This document shows positions 141 to 42,605 of a stretch of 42,605 nucleotides of DNA, piece after piece. The stretch comes from Clostridia bacterium (lineage in GTDB: Bacteria; Bacillota; Clostridia; Oscillospirales; CAG-272). A program made the translations under genes and the position numbers. Location: NCBI GenBank assembly GCA_017411605.1, contig JAFQPR010000082.1, positions 1 to 42,605 of the forward strand, read 5' to 3'. The stretch's first letter is position 1, and every line of letters starts with the position of its first letter. A model generated the notes under the pieces. It saw only the letters and a list, made by a program, of their open reading frames with translations, was not told where the DNA came from and searched no databases.

Positions 141-2474
141 ATGTCATTAAATAATACTGAAAAACCGATAGTCAGACTGCCAATAATCCCCCTTCGCGGA
201 TTAGTCGGTTTTCCCGGAGTTCAATTAAATATAGAAATTGTCAGACCGAATTCTCTCAAAGCCTTCACCGCAGCTGCAACAATGCACGGAATGGAAGTTC
301 TGCTTGTTACGCAAATTGATATATCTAAAGAAAACGTTGAAAGCGATGATCTTTACAAGGTAGGCGTTCTTGCAAAAATACGCCACGTTGTAAAAAACAC
401 GCAGAATAATCTTTCTGTAGTTTTCGAGGGCATCTCGAGAGCGATCATAGATGAGATCGACACAGAAGAAGGCTTTATGTACGGAACAGCTGAGTTGAGA
501 CGTGAGCCTGCATTCTCCACTTCCCCCTCTAAAATAGAAGCGTTAATGGGTGAGATCAAGAATACCATTTCAAATCTGGCTCAGATGCATCCAACGTTTA
601 CCGAAGAAATGCGACTCAGCGCCGAGGCTATTACCGATCCCGGTAAATTTGCAGATTTTATCGCATCATCCGCCGTTATTGATTACAGTAACAAGCAATC
701 TGTTCTCGAATTCTTCACCCCTAAAGCAAGACTTGAAAAGCTCCTCATCGTACTCGAAGAAGAAAAAATGCTTCTTCAATGCGAACATGATATACAGACG
801 CAAGTCAGAGAAAAAATCGATAAAAACCAAAAAGATTATTTTCTTCGTGAGCAAGTCAAGGCTATTCAAGCAGAGCTCGGAGAGGATGACGACGATGAAA
901 TCCATGAATACGAAGAAAAAATTCTCGCCAAAAATCTTCCCGACGAAATCAGAGAAAAGCTTCTTAAGGAGCTCAATAAGCTTTCAAAAACTCCTTTTGG
1001 AGCAGCCGAAGGAACTGTTCTCCGCACTTATCTTGACACTTGTATAGAGTTCCCGTTCGGAACTAGAAGCGAAGCAAAAACGACAGTTGCCGAAGCCAGA
1101 GAAATTCTGAATCAAGATCACGACGGACTCGAAAAGGTTAAAGAAAGAATTCTTGAATTCGTTGCTGTTAAGCAATTCTCCCCCGATGTTAAAAATCAGA
1201 TAATTTGTTTGGTAGGCCCTCCCGGCGTTGGAAAAACTTCGGTAGCCGCATCTATCGCCAGAGCGCTCGGAAGAAAATATGCACGGGTTTCTCTCGGCGG
1301 TATGCACGATGAAGCTGAAATTCGAGGTCACAGAAAAACCTACGTCGGTGCTATGCCGGGAAGAATCGTTTCCGCGATTATCGGAGCTAAGGTTGAAAAC
1401 CCCGTAATCGTTCTCGATGAAATAGATAAGCTTGCAAACGATTTCAGAGGTGATCCTACTTCTGCGCTACTTGAAGTCCTTGACCCCGAGCAGAACAAGA
1501 TGTTCCGCGATAACTTTATGGAGATACCAATCGATCTTTCCGATTGCTTATTTATAGCTACGGCAAACAGCTATGAAAGAATTCCCGCTCCTCTTCTTGA
1601 CAGAATGGAGGTAATTGAGCTTTCTACCTATACCGACTCGGAAAAGGTTGCTATCGCAAAAAATCATCTTATTCCTAAGCAGCTTAAAAGAAACGGTATT
1701 GCGAAAAAATACTTTCGCATAAACGATGATGCAATTTTAAAGCTAATCAAGGAGTATACCCGCGAATCCGGCGTTCGTAATCTTGAGCGCGAGATCGCTT
1801 CGCTTATTAGAAAATCAGCAAAAAGGATTGCTGAGGGCGAAGTTAAATCAGTAGGCATTACCCCTAAAAATCTTGCTTCAATTCTAGGAAAACCTAAGGT
1901 TATACCGGAAAAGCTCGAGGCTACAGATCCCATTGGAGTTGTTAACGGCCTTGCATATACTCAATCGGGCGGTGACCTTCTGAAGGTTGAGGTCGCGGTC
2001 ATGGAAGGCACGGGAAAGATAGAGCTTACCGGTTCTCTTGGCGAGGTTATGAAGGAATCCGCAAAGATTGCTCATTCTTACGTCAGAGGTGTAACCGATA
2101 AGTACGGACTTCCCTCATCCTTCTACAAAGACTCGGATATCCATATTCACTTTCCCGAAGGAGCAATTCCAAAGGATGGTCCCTCTGCCGGTGTTACTAT
2201 GGTTACGGCAATCGTCAGCGCACTAGGAAATATTCCCGTAAAGAGAACCGTTGCAATGACAGGAGAAGTAACTCTTCGCGGCAAGGTTTTACCTATAGGC
2301 GGGCTTAAAGAAAAAACTCTCGCGGCATACAGATGCGGAATAAGCACAGTTCTTATTCCTGCGGATAATATGAAGGATCTTGACGAAATAGATTCACAGG
2401 CTAAGGAGCATCTTACCTTTATTCCCTGTGAGAGCATTTCGGACGTTCTTTCCGCCGCGCTCACTAAATTTTAA
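141..2474 (+). CDS. lon: ATP-dependent protease La (Lon)
   Basis: Cytoplasmic ATP-dependent serine protease that degrades misfolded and regulatory proteins as a hexameric ring. The 777-residue length is normal for LonA. Visible in order: N-terminal LON substrate-binding domain (about 10-205), a helical linker rich in Glu/Lys (about 205-310), an AAA+ module with Walker A GPPGVGKTS (about 359-367) and Walker B VIVLDEIDK, then the C-terminal protease domain with the catalytic serine in KDGPSAG (about S682) and the lysine in GGLKEK (about K725). The ATG at 141 follows AAAAGGA at a good distance. engB follows 16 bases after the stop, matching the common Bacillota order lonA-engB (clpX is often upstream and would lie outside this window). 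All catalytic motifs are intact. Confidence 0.98.
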   Translation: MSLNNTEKPIVRLPIIPLRGLVGFPGVQLNIEIVRPNSLKAFTAAATMHGMEVLLVTQIDISKENVESDDLYKVGVLAKIRHVVKNTQNNLSVVFEGISRAIIDEIDTEEGFMYGTAELRREPAFSTSPSKIEALMGEIKNTISNLAQMHPTFTEEMRLSAEAITDPGKFADFIASSAVIDYSNKQSVLEFFTPKARLEKLLIVLEEEKMLLQCEHDIQTQVREKIDKNQKDYFLREQVKAIQAELGEDDDDEIHEYEEKILAKNLPDEIREKLLKELNKLSKTPFGAAEGTVLRTYLDTCIEFPFGTRSEAKTTVAEAREILNQDHDGLEKVKERILEFVAVKQFSPDVKNQIICLVGPPGVGKTSVAASIARALGRKYARVSLGGMHDEAEIRGHRKTYVGAMPGRIVSAIIGAKVENPVIVLDEIDKLANDFRGDPTSALLEVLDPEQNKMFRDNFMEIPIDLSDCLFIATANSYERIPAPLLDRMEVIELSTYTDSEKVAIAKNHLIPKQLKRNGIAKKYFRINDDAILKLIKEYTRESGVRNLEREIASLIRKSAKRIAEGEVKSVGITPKNLASILGKPKVIPEKLEATDPIGVVNGLAYTQSGGDLLKVEVAVMEGTGKIELTGSLGEVMKESAKIAHSYVRGVTDKYGLPSSFYKDSDIHIHFPEGAIPKDGPSAGVTMVTAIVSALGNIPVKRTVAMTGEVTLRGKVLPIGGLKEKTLAAYRCGISTVLIPADNMKDLDEIDSQAKEHLTFIPCESISDVLSAALTKF

Positions 2475-2490
2475 TAACTTGGACTAAATT

Positions 2491-3090
2491 ATGAGAATTA
2501 ATGTCAATAATGCAAACATAGCATTAACGATCGGCAACTCAAAGCAGTTTCCGAAAGATCCACGCCCACAGATAGCATTATCGGGAAGATCTAACGTCGG
2601 TAAAAGCTCACTTATAAACACATTACTGGGAAGAAAATCTCTCGCGAGAGTTTCTTCCGCTCCCGGTAAAACCATTACGATAAACTATTATAACGTTGAC
2701 GGCAAGATGTTTCTCGTAGACCTTCCGGGTTACGGATATGCGCAGCGCTCTAGGGAATCAAAGAAATCCTGGAGCGCCCTTACCGATGACTATTTTACAA
2801 AAAATCCTTCAGCTGATGCAATCAAGCTTGTTGTTCAGCTTATTGATATCAGAACGGGACCAACGAATGACGATATCATGATGATCAATTTCCTTATTGA
2901 TTCGGAAATACCGTTCGTCGTGGTTGCGACAAAAACCGATAAGCTCTCAAAAACTCAGCTCAAAAATGCTCTCGATGATATGTGGAAGGAGCATTTTGAG
3001 GGAACAAATATTAAAATAATTCCCTTTTCTTCGGTTACCCGCGAAGGAAAAGATATATTATGGAATGAAATATTTGAGGTTATAAATTAA
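2491..3090 (+). CDS. engB: Ribosome biogenesis GTPase EngB (YsxC/YihA)
   Basis: Essential GTPase of the TrmE-Era-EngA-EngB-Septin group needed for late assembly of the 50S ribosomal subunit. The 199-residue protein is full length. Visible motifs: G1 GRSNVGKSS (32-40), G3 DLPGYGYA (77-84), G4 TKTDK (147-151) and a G5-like SSVT near 178. The gene follows lon by 16 bases and precedes the M50 protease gene by 6, so the three are probably co-transcribed. No clear Shine-Dalgarno precedes the ATG at 2491; the upstream bases are TTGGACTAAATT. The start was chosen because the N-terminus aligns with the usual length before the P-loop. Confidence 0.95.
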   Translation: MRINVNNANIALTIGNSKQFPKDPRPQIALSGRSNVGKSSLINTLLGRKSLARVSSAPGKTITINYYNVDGKMFLVDLPGYGYAQRSRESKKSWSALTDDYFTKNPSADAIKLVVQLIDIRTGPTNDDIMMINFLIDSEIPFVVVATKTDKLSKTQLKNALDDMWKEHFEGTNIKIIPFSSVTREGKDILWNEIFEVIN

Positions 3091-3906: not shown

Positions 3907-4740
3907 ATGTCAGAACAGTTAACCTACAGGCTTGACCAGTTTGAAGGTCCCCTAGACCTCTTACTAACGCTCATCAGTAAAAACAAGGTGAGTATCACTG
4001 ATATACCTATCGCAATGATATGCGACCAATATATGGAATATATCGAAGAGGCGCAGCGAATGGACCTTGAAATAGCCAGCGAATTTATCGTTATGGCAAG
4101 CGAGCTGATGCTTATTAAAAGTAAAATGATACTTCCTCACGAGGAGGGCACCGAGAATGACCCAAGACGTGAAATAGCAAACGCTCTTCTTCTTTATCAG
4201 CAGGCAAAGCTTGCGGTTACGAAGCTCCGTCCGCTCTATGAAGAATTTTCTTCGAGATTTGTCAAGGGTACGGACGACGTACCTCCCGAAAAAGGACTTC
4301 CTCTCAATCTCGATCCTGCGCTGATGCTTAAAGCTTTAAACTCGATTCTTAAGAGGATGCGTATCGCCGAGGCAGAAAGAAAGCCCACCGATCTCGTTAA
4401 TCCCCTTATCAAGCACCACGTCGTATCAGTCGAAGAAAAGATCGAAGAGATATGTGCTCTTCTCGAAGAACACGAGGAAGCTTCACTCTTCTTCCTTCTT
4501 AAAGATGCACAAAACAGAGCCGAGCTCGTCGCGAGATTTATGGGTGTGCTTGAGCTTATAAAAATACACAGAATATTTATTACGACAGTTCACTTCGTCG
4601 AGGACGTTGCTGAATACGATGCAGAAGGCTTGGAGATTAAATTCAAATTAAATCCAGATTATGTTCCGATAGAAGGCTTGGAGAGCGAATTTGATGCGCT
4701 TCCTGAGGATAATAAAGAAAAGGACGAAGATAAAAAATGA
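3907..4740 (+). CDS. scpA: Segregation and condensation protein A
   Basis: Kleisin subunit of the SMC-ScpAB condensin that compacts and separates chromosomes. The N-terminus reads YRLDQFEGPLDLLLTLI, the ScpA signature, and the protein is 277 residues, normal for the family. The C-terminal winged-helix part that contacts SMC lies at about 185-245 and is followed by a short acidic tail. An ACGGAGAA ribosome site precedes the ATG. The stop overlaps the scpB start by four bases (ATGA), the classic coupled arrangement. SMC itself is not in the window. Confidence 0.96.
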   Translation: MSEQLTYRLDQFEGPLDLLLTLISKNKVSITDIPIAMICDQYMEYIEEAQRMDLEIASEFIVMASELMLIKSKMILPHEEGTENDPRREIANALLLYQQAKLAVTKLRPLYEEFSSRFVKGTDDVPPEKGLPLNLDPALMLKALNSILKRMRIAEAERKPTDLVNPLIKHHVVSVEEKIEEICALLEEHEEASLFFLLKDAQNRAELVARFMGVLELIKIHRIFITTVHFVEDVAEYDAEGLEIKFKLNPDYVPIEGLESEFDALPEDNKEKDEDKK

Positions 4741-5534
4741 GTGAAATAGAAAATAAAGCAACCGAAAACGAAGACCTCGCCGAGCCCGAAAGAATCGTAG
4801 TCTTTGAAGAAGGACTCGAAGCCGTCCTTTTTGCTGCCGGTCATCCTGTTTCATACGCAACGCTTGCGAGAGTGTTTGATATGACCCCTTCGAAGGTTAA
4901 GGATAAAATATTCGAATACGCAATTAAATATAATGATCCTAAAGGTTTTCCCCGTGGCGTTATGCTTCTTACATACGGAGAATCCTGCCAGCTTTGCACA
5001 AAGGAACATTACCTGCACGAAATACGCGATGCCCTGGGTATAAGAAAGAGCGGTACTCTTTCGACCGCTGCTATGGAAACGCTCGCTGTTGTTGCATATA
5101 ACCAACCTGTTACAAGAGTATTTGTTGATACGATAAGAAAGGTCGATTCTTCATATGCTATGAACAGTCTTATTGACAGAGGTCTTATTGAATGCGTCGG
5201 ACGACTTGATGTTCCGGGCAGACCTATGCAGTACGGTACGACTTCGGACTTCTTAAGGTGCTTCGGTCTTAAATCGATCGAGGATCTTCCTTCCGCTTCA
5301 GAGGAGCTTGTTAACATGTTTGAGAAGACTCGCGAAAAGGAAGAAGCCGAGCGTAATCAAGACGATAATCAAATTACTATCGACGACGTCGAATCCGAAG
5401 AAACGGCGGAAAATATCGAGCAGACTGCAAATGATAGCACAGATACCGATGGCGACGTCGGCGAAGGTACGAATTCCGACACCGAATTATCTGACGAGCC
5501 TTCTGCCGAGGATGATATTATAGACGTAGATTAA
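4737..5534 (+). CDS. scpB: Segregation and condensation protein B
   Basis: Dimeric partner of ScpA in the SMC condensin. The winged-helix core spans about residues 22-190, including LEAVLFAAGHPVS near the N-terminus and TLAVVAYNQPVTR in the middle, typical of ScpB. The protein is 265 residues, longer than the usual 180-200. The extra length is a low-complexity acidic tail (about 195-265) made almost entirely of Asp, Glu, Ser, Thr and Asn, probably disordered. It is translationally coupled to scpA through the ATGA overlap. Confidence 0.95.
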   Translation: MSEIENKATENEDLAEPERIVVFEEGLEAVLFAAGHPVSYATLARVFDMTPSKVKDKIFEYAIKYNDPKGFPRGVMLLTYGESCQLCTKEHYLHEIRDALGIRKSGTLSTAAMETLAVVAYNQPVTRVFVDTIRKVDSSYAMNSLIDRGLIECVGRLDVPGRPMQYGTTSDFLRCFGLKSIEDLPSASEELVNMFEKTREKEEAERNQDDNQITIDDVESEETAENIEQTANDSTDTDGDVGEGTNSDTELSDEPSAEDDIIDVD

Positions 5535-36908: not shown

Positions 36909-36962
36909 AAAAAGTTGGACACATTACATAGGAAAAACTTAAAATGATGTGTCCAACTTTTT
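36909..36962. repeat. Terminal inverted-repeat hairpin, copy 1
   Basis: AAAAAGTTGGACACAT (36909-36924) and ATGTGTCCAACTTTTT (36947-36962): 16 perfect pairs around a 22-base loop. It directly abuts the stop region of the decayed four-helix-bundle gene and would work as a terminator. A near-identical hairpin is at 41025-41077 by the second gene copy. Confidence 0.9.
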
Positions 36963-36963
36963 A

Positions 36964-37307
36964 TCATAGATTGTTTTTAGCGGTGTTAATAGAACTAATC
37001 AAAATTCGTCTTATTTTACCGGAATCGATACTCATTTTACCATAAACAGAATCGCTAATTATATTGGTTTTCACAAATAACTTTAACCAATACTCTGTTT
37101 CGTGGCATTCCTTGAGTGCAATTTGCATTTTTGCTACGAAATCAGCCTTACTGCTTGCGTAGTTCGCTTCATGAATATTTGCGCCTTACTTGTACCGCTG
37201 CGTAAAAGCTGGTTAGTTAAAGCATTCTTCCCTTTTAAGCTTTCGCAGAGATTAACAATATCGATAGCAAATTGCATTGATAAATCAAGAACAAGGTTTT
37301 CTGACAT
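36964..37307 (-). pseudogene. Frameshifted four-helix-bundle protein (bAvd/23S-IVP family)
   Basis: Read from ATG at 37307 (GAAGG upstream) the frame gives MSENLVLDLSMQFAIDIVNL and continues to NQLLRSGTS, then shifts: one base is missing at about 37186 compared with the intact copy. Restoring it gives IGANIHEANYASSKADF, KMQIALKE, ETEYWLKLFVK and ISSINTAK to a stop at 36964, 114 residues in all, collinear with the gene at 41216-41560 and clearly similar throughout. So it is a decayed relative, not a recent exact duplicate. A sequencing error is the alternative explanation. Confidence 0.85.
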
Positions 37308-41024: not shown

Positions 41025-41077
41025 AAAAAATGGACACATCACAGAGGATTTCTCCAAAATGACGTGTCCAACTTTTT
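41025..41077. repeat. Terminal inverted-repeat hairpin, copy 2
   Basis: AAAAAATGGACACATC (41025-41040) pairs with GACGTGTCCAACTTTTT (41061-41077), with one bulge and one G-U/A-C type mismatch. It is the counterpart of the hairpin at 36909-36962. The 155 bases before it (from 40871) hold nothing I can identify. Confidence 0.85.
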
Positions 41078-41105
41078 ATGAATTTGACTTTGCAGTATCG
41101 GTTTT

Positions 41106-41212
41106 GCGAAGCTAAAGCTTCGCTTGAAATGCGCTTTTCACTTGCGCTTGAAATGATGCTACGCATCTTGAAATGAAACGCATCGCGTTTTCTTGAAATG
41201 CACTAAAGTGCA
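41106..41212. repeat. Hairpin array B: five palindromes joined by TTGAAAT
   Basis: Palindromes: GCGAAGC-TAAA-GCTTCGC (41106-41123), a weak GCGC...GCGC (41131-41147), GATGC-TAC-GCATC (41155-41167), GAAACGC-ATC-GCGTTTTC (41175-41192), TGCACTAAAGTGCA (41199-41212). The constant heptamer TTGAAAT stands between them at 41124, 41148, 41168 and 41193. The last palindrome ends four bases from the stop of the four-helix-bundle gene. Confidence 0.9.
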
Positions 41213-41215
41213 TTA

Positions 41216-41560
41216 TTACGCATTAGCCTTTGCAGTGTTTATCGAGGAAATAAGAAGCTTTCTTATTTTACCGCAGTCGTTTTTTAACTTCTTGTAGACT
41301 TCTTCGGAAATTATGGCGGTTTTCACGAACAATTCGAGCCAATATTCAGTTTCATAGCTTTCCTTTAATGCTATCTGCATTTTGGCAATAAAATCTGCTC
41401 TGCTACTCGCATAATTAGCTTCGTGAATGTTTGCGCCTATTGACGTACCGCTACGGAGAAGTTGATTTACAATAGCAGACTTCCCTTTTATGCTATCACA
41501 AATATTAACTATTGCAACAGAAAAATCCATTGATAAGTCTGCTATTATATTGTTAGTCAT
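41216..41560 (-). CDS. Four-helix-bundle protein (bAvd/23S rRNA IVP-like, TIGR02436 type)
   Basis: A 114-residue all-helical protein. The family signature NQLLRSGTSIGANIHEANYA (about 35-54) is intact, followed by KMQIALKESYETEYWL and a final ISSINTAK. Relatives include the protein encoded in 23S rRNA intervening sequences and the Avd accessory protein of diversity-generating retroelements; the fold forms pentamers and binds nucleic acid in the Avd case. No reverse transcriptase or template repeat is present here, and there is no rRNA gene. ATG at 41560 follows AAAGGG at 9 bases. The gene is embedded between palindrome arrays. Confidence 0.88.
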   Translation of the reverse strand: MTNNIIADLSMDFSVAIVNICDSIKGKSAIVNQLLRSGTSIGANIHEANYASSRADFIAKMQIALKESYETEYWLELFVKTAIISEEVYKKLKNDCGKIRKLLISSINTAKANA

Positions 41561-41587
41561 AGTATTTAACCCTTTCATTAAAGAGTT

Positions 41588-41846
41588 GCGAAGCTGTGGC
41601 TTCGCTTGAAATGGCAACAAGTTGCCTTGAAATGCCTCACGGCTTGAAATGAATCGCACAGTGCTTTTTGAAATGCACTAAAGTGCGTTAAATGAAATCG
41701 CCCTATCCCAATTGATAAATATGCGCCACGACGGAAAACCGCGTGGCGCATTTCAAGCTCACAAAGTGAGCATTTCAATCACCAAAGGTGAATTTCAATT
41801 GCTCGATTTATCGGGCGAATTTCATTGTAATTCGCGTTGCGAATTA
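41588..41846. repeat. Hairpin array A with internal inversion
   Basis: First half: GCGAAGC-TGTG-GCTTCGC (41588-41605), GGCAACAAGTTGCC (41613-41626), GCC-TCAC-GGC (41634-41643), GCAC-A-GTGC (41656-41664), GCACTAAAGTGC (41675-41686), joined by TTGAAAT at 41606, 41627, 41644 and 41668. Then a large stem ATGCGCCACG/CGTGGCGCAT (41721-41751), after which the heptamer is inverted, ATTTCAA at 41750, 41772 and 41792, separating GCTCAC-AAA-GTGAGC (41757-41771), TCACC-AAA-GGTGA (41779-41791), a TTGCTCGAT/ATCGGGCGA stem (41799-41818) and TAATTCGC-GTT-GCGAATTA (41828-41846), which includes the stop codon of the next gene. Confidence 0.9.
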
Positions 41847-42605
41847 CTTGCTTGCCTCTTCGATAGCAACTGCAACAGCAACAGTCATACCAACCATGGG
41901 GTTGTTACCTGCGCCGATGAGACCCATCATTTCTACATGCGCAGGAACGGAAGAGGAACCTGCGAACTGAGCGTCGCCGTGCATTCTACCCATAGTATCG
42001 GTCATACCATAGGAAGCGGGACCTGCAGCCATGTTATCAGGGTGAAGGGTTCTACCTGTACCACCACCGGATGCAACGGAGAAGTACTTCTTTCCGTTCT
42101 CATTACACCACTTCTTGTAGGTTCCCGCAACGGGGTGCTGGAATCTTGTGGGGTTAGTGGAGTTACCGGTGATAGAAACGCCAACGTTCTCAAGACGCAT
42201 AATTGCAACGCCTTCCGGAACACTGTCAGAACCGTAGCATCTTACCTTTGCTCTGTCTCCGTTGGAGTAAGCGATCTCCTTAACGATCTTAACCTCTTCG
42301 GTATAGGGATCGAACTGAGTCTGAACGTAGGTAAAGCCGTTGATACGGGAAATGATCATAGCGGCATCCTTACCAAGACCGTTAAGGATAACGCGAAGAG
42401 GCTTATTTCTAACCTTGTTAGCATTAAGAGCAATCTTAATTGCGCCCTCTGCAGCAGCGAAAGACTCGTGACCTGCAAGGAAGCAGAAGCACTCGGTCTC
42501 CTCGGAAAGAAGCATCTTACCGAGATTACCGTGGCCGATACCAACCTTACGGTTTTCAGCAACGGAGCCGGGGATGCAGAAGCTCTGCAGACCGATACCG
42601 ATAGC
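41844..42605 (-). CDS. GGGtGRT-family protein, C-terminal part (runs off the window)
   Basis: 253 codons plus stop are present; the frame is open to the window edge, so the N-terminus is missing. The defining motif GGGTGRTLHPDNMAAGPASY is intact, followed by GRMHGDAQFAGSSSVPAHVEM and an alanine/valine-rich end. Proteins of this family occur in Clostridia and some archaea and have no established function that I know. The codon choice is strongly biased toward C-ending and a few preferred codons (ggt, gtt, aac, ctt), unlike the neighbouring accessory genes, which suggests high expression. The hairpin array begins at its stop codon and could form the 3' end of its mRNA. Confidence 0.88.
   Translation of the reverse strand, partial: AIGIGLQSFCIPGSVAENRKVGIGHGNLGKMLLSEETECFCFLAGHESFAAAEGAIKIALNANKVRNKPLRVILNGLGKDAAMIISRINGFTYVQTQFDPYTEEVKIVKEIAYSNGDRAKVRCYGSDSVPEGVAIMRLENVGVSITGNSTNPTRFQHPVAGTYKKWCNENGKKYFSVASGGGTGRTLHPDNMAAGPASYGMTDTMGRMHGDAQFAGSSSVPAHVEMMGLIGAGNNPMVGMTVAVAVAIEEASK

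Follow-up and report, generated by a model that had tools for sequence, protein, structure and literature searches.

What are rows of short palindromes doing on both sides of a small gene whose product is not a known transposase? The question is raised by one locus of a Clostridia bacterium (assembly GCA_017411605.1), where a sequence-only reading had placed palindromes of differing sequence, spaced by a heptamer, around a gene for a four-helix-bundle protein. The window analysed here is the whole 42,605-nt stretch (contig JAFQPR010000082.1), which belongs to a 2.80-Mb assembly that is 82% complete; nearly all the data considered, in the window and beyond it, are metagenome assemblies. The reading we favour, at a probability of roughly 0.6, is that the locus holds one of a set of small mobile elements of gut Clostridia, in which DNA hairpins would be the sites of an IVP-type bundle protein that would direct their upkeep or movement.

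The locus in the window

In gene direction the locus is ordered as neighbouring gene, junction hairpin, left half (TTGAAAT), centre, right half (ATTTCAA), gene and second right half. Linker orientation is likewise ordered: one half-array is followed by another in the reverse orientation, and this second half recurs after the gene. The features are as follows.

41827..41847, minus strand: junction hairpin hp0, GTAATTCGC-AAC-GCGAATTAC, 9 bp, with the neighbouring gene's stop codon in its 5' arm
41723..41826, minus strand: left half-array, four hairpins, TTGAAAT linkers at 41792-41798, 41772-41778 and 41750-41756
41687..41722, minus strand: centre separating the two half-arrays
41588..41686, minus strand: right half-array, five hairpins, linkers ATTTCAA (TTGAAAT on the plus strand at 41606, 41627, 41644 and 41668)
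41216..41560, minus strand: four-helix-bundle gene, PF05635 23S_rRNA_IVP / TIGR02436, 114 aa, ATG at 41560-41558
41106..41211, minus strand: second copy of the right half-array, 3' of the gene, five hairpins, TTGAAAT on the plus strand at 41124, 41148, 41168 and 41193
41025..41079, minus strand: 3' stretch with a GGACAC..GTGTCC hairpin, common to the degenerate copy (78% over 55 nt)
36910..37286, minus strand: degenerate second copy of the element, frame broken, remnants of hairpins upstream

The 114-aa product lies over both curated cut-offs (TIGR02436, 98.5 bits against 24; PF05635, 88.2 against 33.8), which confirms the IVP-type four-helix bundle first proposed, and a profile of its relatives finds PDB 2rld, a solved five-chain entry, at E 9e-40. 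We presume that it also resembles Avd. Perfect hairpins (stem of at least 5, loop of 3-5) number 11 between 41100 and 41860, against a mean of 3.2 and a maximum of 8 in dinucleotide shuffles (0/500 reach 11); five hairpins in the same interval are joined by one 6-mer (shuffle mean 0.1, 0/500), and of 145 tiles of 280 nt taken from the first 40.6 kb not one holds two linked hairpins. By eye, imperfect stems included, about 15 palindromes surround the gene (one at the junction, four left, five right, five beyond the gene), in agreement with the initial count of at least 14. TTGAAAT itself occurs 28 times in the window against a shuffle mean of 17.5, with 11 of these in 41124-41798, and the right half-array and its copy 3' of the gene are direct repeats (72-92%).

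The arrays do lie inside the interval 41106..41846 first assigned to the feature; the element also takes in the junction hairpin up to 41847 and perhaps the sequence down to 41025, the stretch at 41025-41079 being its possible right end. The window copy sits between protein genes, and a promoter scan gave no excess over shuffles. The neighbouring gene carries the motif GGGTGRT and gave no NCBIfam match; it also stands on one side of three other loci (L128, L129 and L087), and in the orthologous L128 and L129 a hairpin occupies the position that matches the window's junction hairpin. The window's own element is old and has been kept by vertical descent.

Half-arrays and the Gut-1 family

The sequence-only reading took the system to be undescribed, which cannot stand for the half-array, as its sequence matches identify it with the already known Gut-1. 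Rfam RF01706 matches half-arrays on either strand, at 64.8 bits in locus L153 and 51.5 in L129 against a gathering score of 50, and other arrays of the window's genome reach 76.8 bits. In the window itself the match in the left half-array (41745-41827) stays below the gathering score of 50 at 40.7 bits (E 1.6e-6 in its genome), and that in the second right-half copy (41122-41204) is weak, at 26.2 bits. Gut-1 was counted among likely noncoding RNAs from gut samples, found solely in environmental sequences, and the portion of that paper available to us names no gene link (Weinberg 2010, PMC2864571). The 77-nt GUGAAAU-linked unit of three hairpins is the same sequence object; what differs here is that it forms half of an array with two sides, represents one linker class among several, is dispersed, and is tied to a bundle gene. 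Among the literature matches listed, which came mostly from outside subscription journals, bioRxiv preprints and supplements, none gave a fitting account of array and gene together.

Arrays accompany the bundle gene

The neighbourhoods of TIGR02436 genes in relatives were searched for linked hairpins, as the sequence-only reading had proposed, and arrays are associated with the gene. Of 84 TIGR02436 matches compared, 38 have two or more linked hairpins within 700 nt (windows of up to 1.7 kb), whereas the number is 7 among 327 tiles of 1.2 kb lying more than 1.5 kb away; the 84 matches, in 80 regions, are the higher-scoring part of the TIGR02436 matches, and six of the seven array-positive far tiles were inspected and look like solitary arrays. 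A strict score with all windows at most 800 nt places an array upstream of the gene in 51 of 80 loci and downstream in three (far tiles 2/266, block shuffles 0/400), and at least one linked hairpin lies upstream in 76. These loci are the best 80 of 569 by similarity to an alignment built mostly from array-bearing loci, so that the 51/80, and the 42/80 for tRNA genes below, are biased upwards; the 38/84 comparison and the class-wide co-occurrence of Gut-1 and gene are less biased.

Within this genome and its relatives, Gut-1 is present in 47 of 59 genomes, with up to 52 matches per genome, and in 43 of 47 carriers of the gene against 4 of 12 other genomes (Fisher p 8e-5). In the class-wide sample of 293 genomes 37 have Gut-1, 70 the gene and 28 both (Fisher p 7e-13). 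Gut-1 gave no match in 42 of these 70 carriers of TIGR02436, scored with a model that favours one linker and on 15 candidates per genome, and the gene gave none in 9 of the 37 Gut-1 carriers. Pairs at most 700 nt apart number 15 among the matches listed (150 Gut-1 places and 69 genes of Gut-1-positive genomes) against 0.33 expected, with Gut-1 upstream in 14. The association is not exclusive, as arrays with other linkers occur away from the gene. TTGAAAT-spaced pairs, whose equal frequency elsewhere had been named as the result that would reduce the link to chance, stand at 13 places in the genome, eight of them here. Many bundle genes are found a few hundred bases or less from the end of a contig (e.g. 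G016:C13:195-518 and G023:C4:5-310), so that hairpin arrays may break assemblies and be undercounted.

Linker and protein change together

The heptamer was at first described as a constant TTGAAAT, and this had to be given up: the linker varies among protein clades, in nine classes plus 'other' (TTGAAAT, GTGAAAT, ATGAAAT, TGAATTG, GTGAAGT, GTGATAT, GTTATAT, GCTAAAT and others). Linker and protein covary, and clades tend to have a linker of their own. On a tree of 115 proteins, with 59 of its 112 inner branches unresolved, the ten labels need 17 changes; the Mantel correlation is 0.72 (0/2000 permutations, which treat related loci as independent), and mean protein identity is 71% within a linker label and 54% between labels. 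This set keeps 115 of 154 loci, those with fewer than four linker flanks having been left out, and counts 'other' as one label. Since gene and array are neighbours, shared descent accounts for part of the covariation. What we consider notable is that the linker keeps to the protein while the stems change.

Perfect stems of changing sequence would also fit quasi-palindrome correction, and the palindromes could then be a functionless by-product of template switching. Such a by-product would not be expected to have linkers that follow a protein, a loop preference or a set position relative to tRNA genes, and the covariation contradicts it; we consider this origin highly improbable.

About eight of 18 solitary arrays of the window's genome, judged by eye, have the linkers GTGAAGT and GCGATAT, for which no resident gene was found in this 82% complete assembly; a full pairing of solitary linkers with resident genes was sought in this genome and not found. 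Some loci have several arrays. In L135 (1600-3300) and L198 (3320-4500) a second array with a different linker follows the gene behind the first block, as if stacked in tandem, and the two loci have a common stretch preceding the second array. L062 has single-orientation arrays with a GTGAATT linker (2368-3006 and 4603-5174) shortly before start codons, one of them preceding a truB-like gene (named by eye), and GTGCC/GGCAC against GCGCC/GGCGC there looks like a compensatory change.

Dispersed copies and moving blocks

The proposal that the arrays are mobilised units agrees with what we find, as dispersed copies with sharp ends, together with array-plus-gene blocks in mostly unrelated flanks, indicate mobility of both forms. 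The genome of the window holds 27 Gut-1 matches (E up to 0.01), of which three are at a four-helix gene, and half-arrays match Gut-1 on both strands, often as inverted pairs. In genome G029 several places hold nearly identical units, each of about 85 nt, with flanks that differ at the unit edge to the left of L263 and to the right of L275 and L278; some of its units sit inside a larger shared repeat. The 182-nt array of L226 recurs in its own and in other genomes with ends much alike, mostly without its flanks, and the match in genome G010 extends about 50 nt further, over the terminator. An empty-site check with L226 did not find its flanks in relatives, and the rumA locus was used instead. 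In three groups of loci with blocks 72-89% identical to the reference, the surroundings are otherwise unrelated but for a few short matches, and the shared block begins at the array start, or at the tRNA gene or terminator that immediately precedes it, and ends 5-16 nt beyond the match. Taken with the association and the linker covariation, these shared blocks support the initial view of gene and palindromes as one system.

Two further repeat arrangements were seen: seven Gut-1 matches on one strand at a spacing of about 64 nt, an expanded tandem array (G006:C68:8828-9292), and, beside Gut-1 units in G029 (L266, L269 and L272), another dispersed palindromic repeat, CCTTCCCC AA GGGGAAGG, with ACCAC..GTGGT. 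A phage origin is not supported, a pattern scan of viral contigs having given four relatives.

A Y1 (IS200/RAYT-like) transposase whose gene lies elsewhere could in principle move the arrays in trans. The layout of REP sequences, a short head and hairpin in paired orientation, is similar in the available parts of PMC2817692 and PMC8266576, two Y1 genes are present in the window's genome, and the Gut-1-rich genomes G004 (39) and G045 (36) have Y1 as well. However, Y1_Tnp was found in only 15 of the 59 genomes and gave no match in the Gut-1-rich G028 (52), G058 (48), G016 (39) and G038 (34), some of these assemblies being incomplete, and we hold this source of mobility to be very unlikely.

Sites of the element

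A tRNA gene on the same strand ends 211-284 nt before the bundle gene in 42 of the 80 selected loci, the upward-biased count referred to above, and lies within 600 nt in 49; among relatives' loci a tRNA gene within 600 nt is found in 25 of 84 only. The tRNAs before the bundle gene are of 13 isotypes, and 19 other tRNA genes occur in these loci. A terminator-like hairpin usually stands between tRNA and array, and a hairpin is frequent at the junction in general: one of at least 8 bp was found at the 5' edge of 64 of 104 arrays (all linkers) against 5 of 265 random places, and was not detected in the other 40, partly because array starts are misplaced.

The 3' end of rumA (TIGR00479) is another such site. 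Depending on the species, arrays of four linker classes start at or next to its stop codon; rumA genes without an array also occur (L347, L348 and L350), and the array may be followed by the bundle gene, its remnant, or a different gene. The 5' arm of the rumA edge hairpin is rumA's own coding sequence. The 3' arm fits its host at 9.0 of 12, as opposed to 6.9 when arms are swapped between loci (0/20000 permutations, with loci treated as independent); 7 of 24 arrays fit the host arm fully and 3 of 24 fit 4-5 of 12. The fit was scored on 24 of 27 arrays; the other three are L341, which is identical to L339, L105, where the hairpin is shifted, and L205, which has none. In the rumA set L353, L354 and L356 are possible paralogues, and L351 (359 nt) did not enter the analysis. 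We read the arm fit as a probable sign either of copying by fold-back or of entry directed by shape, followed by exchange between loci.

A different account is that the protein does no more than recognise hairpins, as part of its own regulation or of chromosome upkeep, and that homologous recombination, acting between repeats and from one tRNA or rumA locus to another, spreads the blocks. Different linker classes at one rumA site in different species, mismatched rumA arms that look recombined, G029 units within a larger shared repeat, and the position of the array immediately 5' of the gene at most of the 80 loci would all suit such an account. Furthermore, the bundle protein's family is not known to us for any nuclease, recombinase or polymerase activity, so that the protein may only bind. 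Sharp-ended solitary copies at many unrelated places are nevertheless poorly explained by homology alone, and sites by the tens, far from the gene, would be more than a regulator requires. We regard recognition without a part in movement as unlikely, though it is the likeliest of the alternatives.

DNA or RNA as the acting form

That Gut-1 is listed as an RNA family by Rfam, and counted among likely noncoding RNAs in what is available of the 2010 paper (PMC2864571), raises the question of whether the arrays act as RNA, either as a noncoding RNA or as a structured leader of the gene, bound by a protein of the 23S-rRNA-element family; RNA ligands were also among the roles first proposed. In 12 of the 15 close pairs the Gut-1 half is on the gene's strand, 109-184 nt upstream. 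Furthermore, all four Watson-Crick pair types occur at each of five stem positions, and thus structure is kept while sequence changes; both observations speak for an RNA.

The two halves of the array, however, are reversed in kind. Loops on the gene's strand are TNC/TNNC 87 times and GNA/GNNA twice in the left half (other, 51), and TNC/TNNC three times and GNA/GNNA 96 times in the right half (other, 92). Mismatches mirror this pattern, with A-C 11 and G-T 3 on the gene's strand of the left half and G-T 15 and A-C 1 in the right (GNA strand overall, G-T 26 against A-C 4, p 6e-5), and as such the strand with the GNA loop tolerates G-T in both halves, whatever the gene direction. The sense strand of the left half thus has A-C where an RNA would have G-U, and a single transcript in gene direction would not be expected to give such an asymmetry of loops and mismatches, which tracks linker orientation. 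The stems are also almost purely Watson-Crick: G-T makes up 1.4% of stem pairs against 8.1% in tRNAs of the same loci, a figure from which 187 of 570 inter-linker segments not scored as hairpins are left out, duplicates having been removed (330 left), and many of 40 unscored segments viewed look like hairpins of 3-4 bp. Half-arrays that match on both strands, often as inverted pairs, likewise speak against an RNA. We therefore judge an acting RNA unlikely, and on these sequence statistics DNA hairpins are the likely acting form. GNA and GNNA loops give unusually stable DNA mini-hairpins, according to the part of PMC4686876 available.

Genes behind the bundle gene

In 22 of the 80 loci another gene starts at -4 to +3 of the bundle stop codon, 15 of them at -4 with the overlap ATGA, and at these ATGA-type starts the ribosome-binding site lies inside the four-helix gene; in 11 loci the next start is further off (within 150 nt), and 47 have none. 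A start was accepted where an ATG had a ribosome-binding site and opened a frame of 50 codons or more. Most of the follow-on genes bear little resemblance to one another. Of 18 of their proteins scanned, eight are without a Pfam match, and the matches of the others include an immunity-like protein, DUF6678 (twice), DUF4288, an AAA protein and a hydrolase. These findings suggest that the element may serve as a gene-capture platform. In L105 and L106 the same downstream gene stands behind different four-helix genes, and as such some follow-on genes are resident and gene capture is something that we infer rather than observe. A short leader with a ribosome-binding site was also seen behind the bundle gene at L106:6304-6416, and it partly recurs elsewhere without that gene.

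One could go further and postulate that the bundle protein carries out the recombination in a new gene-capture system. The arrays would then be single-strand attachment sites, DNA hairpins such as the tRNA terminator or the rumA end would be its targets, fold-back synthesis on host sequence would supply part of the junction hairpin, and genes of host or foreign origin would be taken up directly behind the protein gene, whose last codons would supply their ribosome-binding site. At present we consider so complete a scheme doubtful.

Discussion

The reading to which we return is that of a mobile element served by its own bundle protein. The element would consist of short DNA hairpins, arrayed in two oppositely oriented halves with a clade-specific linker, and would exist in a gene-bearing form of about 600 nt, array followed by IVP-type four-helix-bundle gene, and a gene-less form of about 180 nt, the array alone, half of which is Gut-1. 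The acting form would be single-stranded or cruciform DNA, and the unit a linker plus GNA/GNNA-looped hairpin read on one strand. The bundle protein, related to 2rld by sequence, would bind these units through linker and hairpin shape, and binding would steer their upkeep or movement; elements would enter immediately 3' of a site able to form a hairpin, for example a tRNA terminator or the 3' end of rumA. That the arrays are substrates of the protein, and that it binds them and takes part in their movement, we infer from the patterns above.

Among known systems, REP/BIME sequences with their RAYT gene are the closest in layout, and the resemblance first noted holds to that extent. As far as the available text of PMC2817692 and PMC8266576 goes, the two have in common a constant short head with a hairpin, opposite orientations, a bordered gene, dispersal and strand-specific reading, and the units here are indeed dispersed and of opposite orientation. 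Membership was rejected, as the bordered gene encodes a four-helix bundle and not a Y1/HUH transposase; the GTAG/GTGG head of REP was not encountered either, the heads here being TTGAAAT, GTGAAAT, GTGATAT, GTTATAT, GCTAAAT and others. In further contrast, the hairpin sequence is free here while linker and shape are kept, and there are tens of copies per genome as opposed to the often hundreds described for REP in those texts.

By its protein the element is akin to the intervening sequences of 23S rRNA. The Coxiella IVS, in the part of PMC4990558 available, is a 428-nt element with an S23p/IVP gene, called selfish and bordered by complementary sequence, and is placed where a 23S rRNA helix had a small tetraloop. 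The elements described here have a protein of the same-named family (S23p/IVP) and are likewise placed at a hairpin (the window junction and 64 of 104 arrays). Unlike that IVS as there described, they lie outside 23S rRNA, behind tRNA genes, rumA and other genes, and have hairpin arrays with constant linkers as well as free-standing arrays. A likeness to integron attC sites, again as far as our partial sources describe them, is that hairpin structure and not sequence is kept, that folded single strands act, and that variable genes stand right behind the block in some loci; the multi-hairpin arrays here differ from the one imperfect hairpin of attC. Since the element falls outside the definitions of both REP/RAYT and the 23S IVS, we rate it as probably a kind of its own, which would work most like REP/RAYT and be related to the IVS through its protein.

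If this reading is correct, an orphan Rfam family and the widespread IVP/S23p proteins would both acquire a genomic context. The reading would also define a class of mobile element of about 600 nt, the sole gene of which encodes a small bundle protein without, to our knowledge, a catalytic site, and would raise the questions of whether such a protein reads hairpin shape and a seven-base tag in single-stranded DNA, and of how its hairpin targets are picked.
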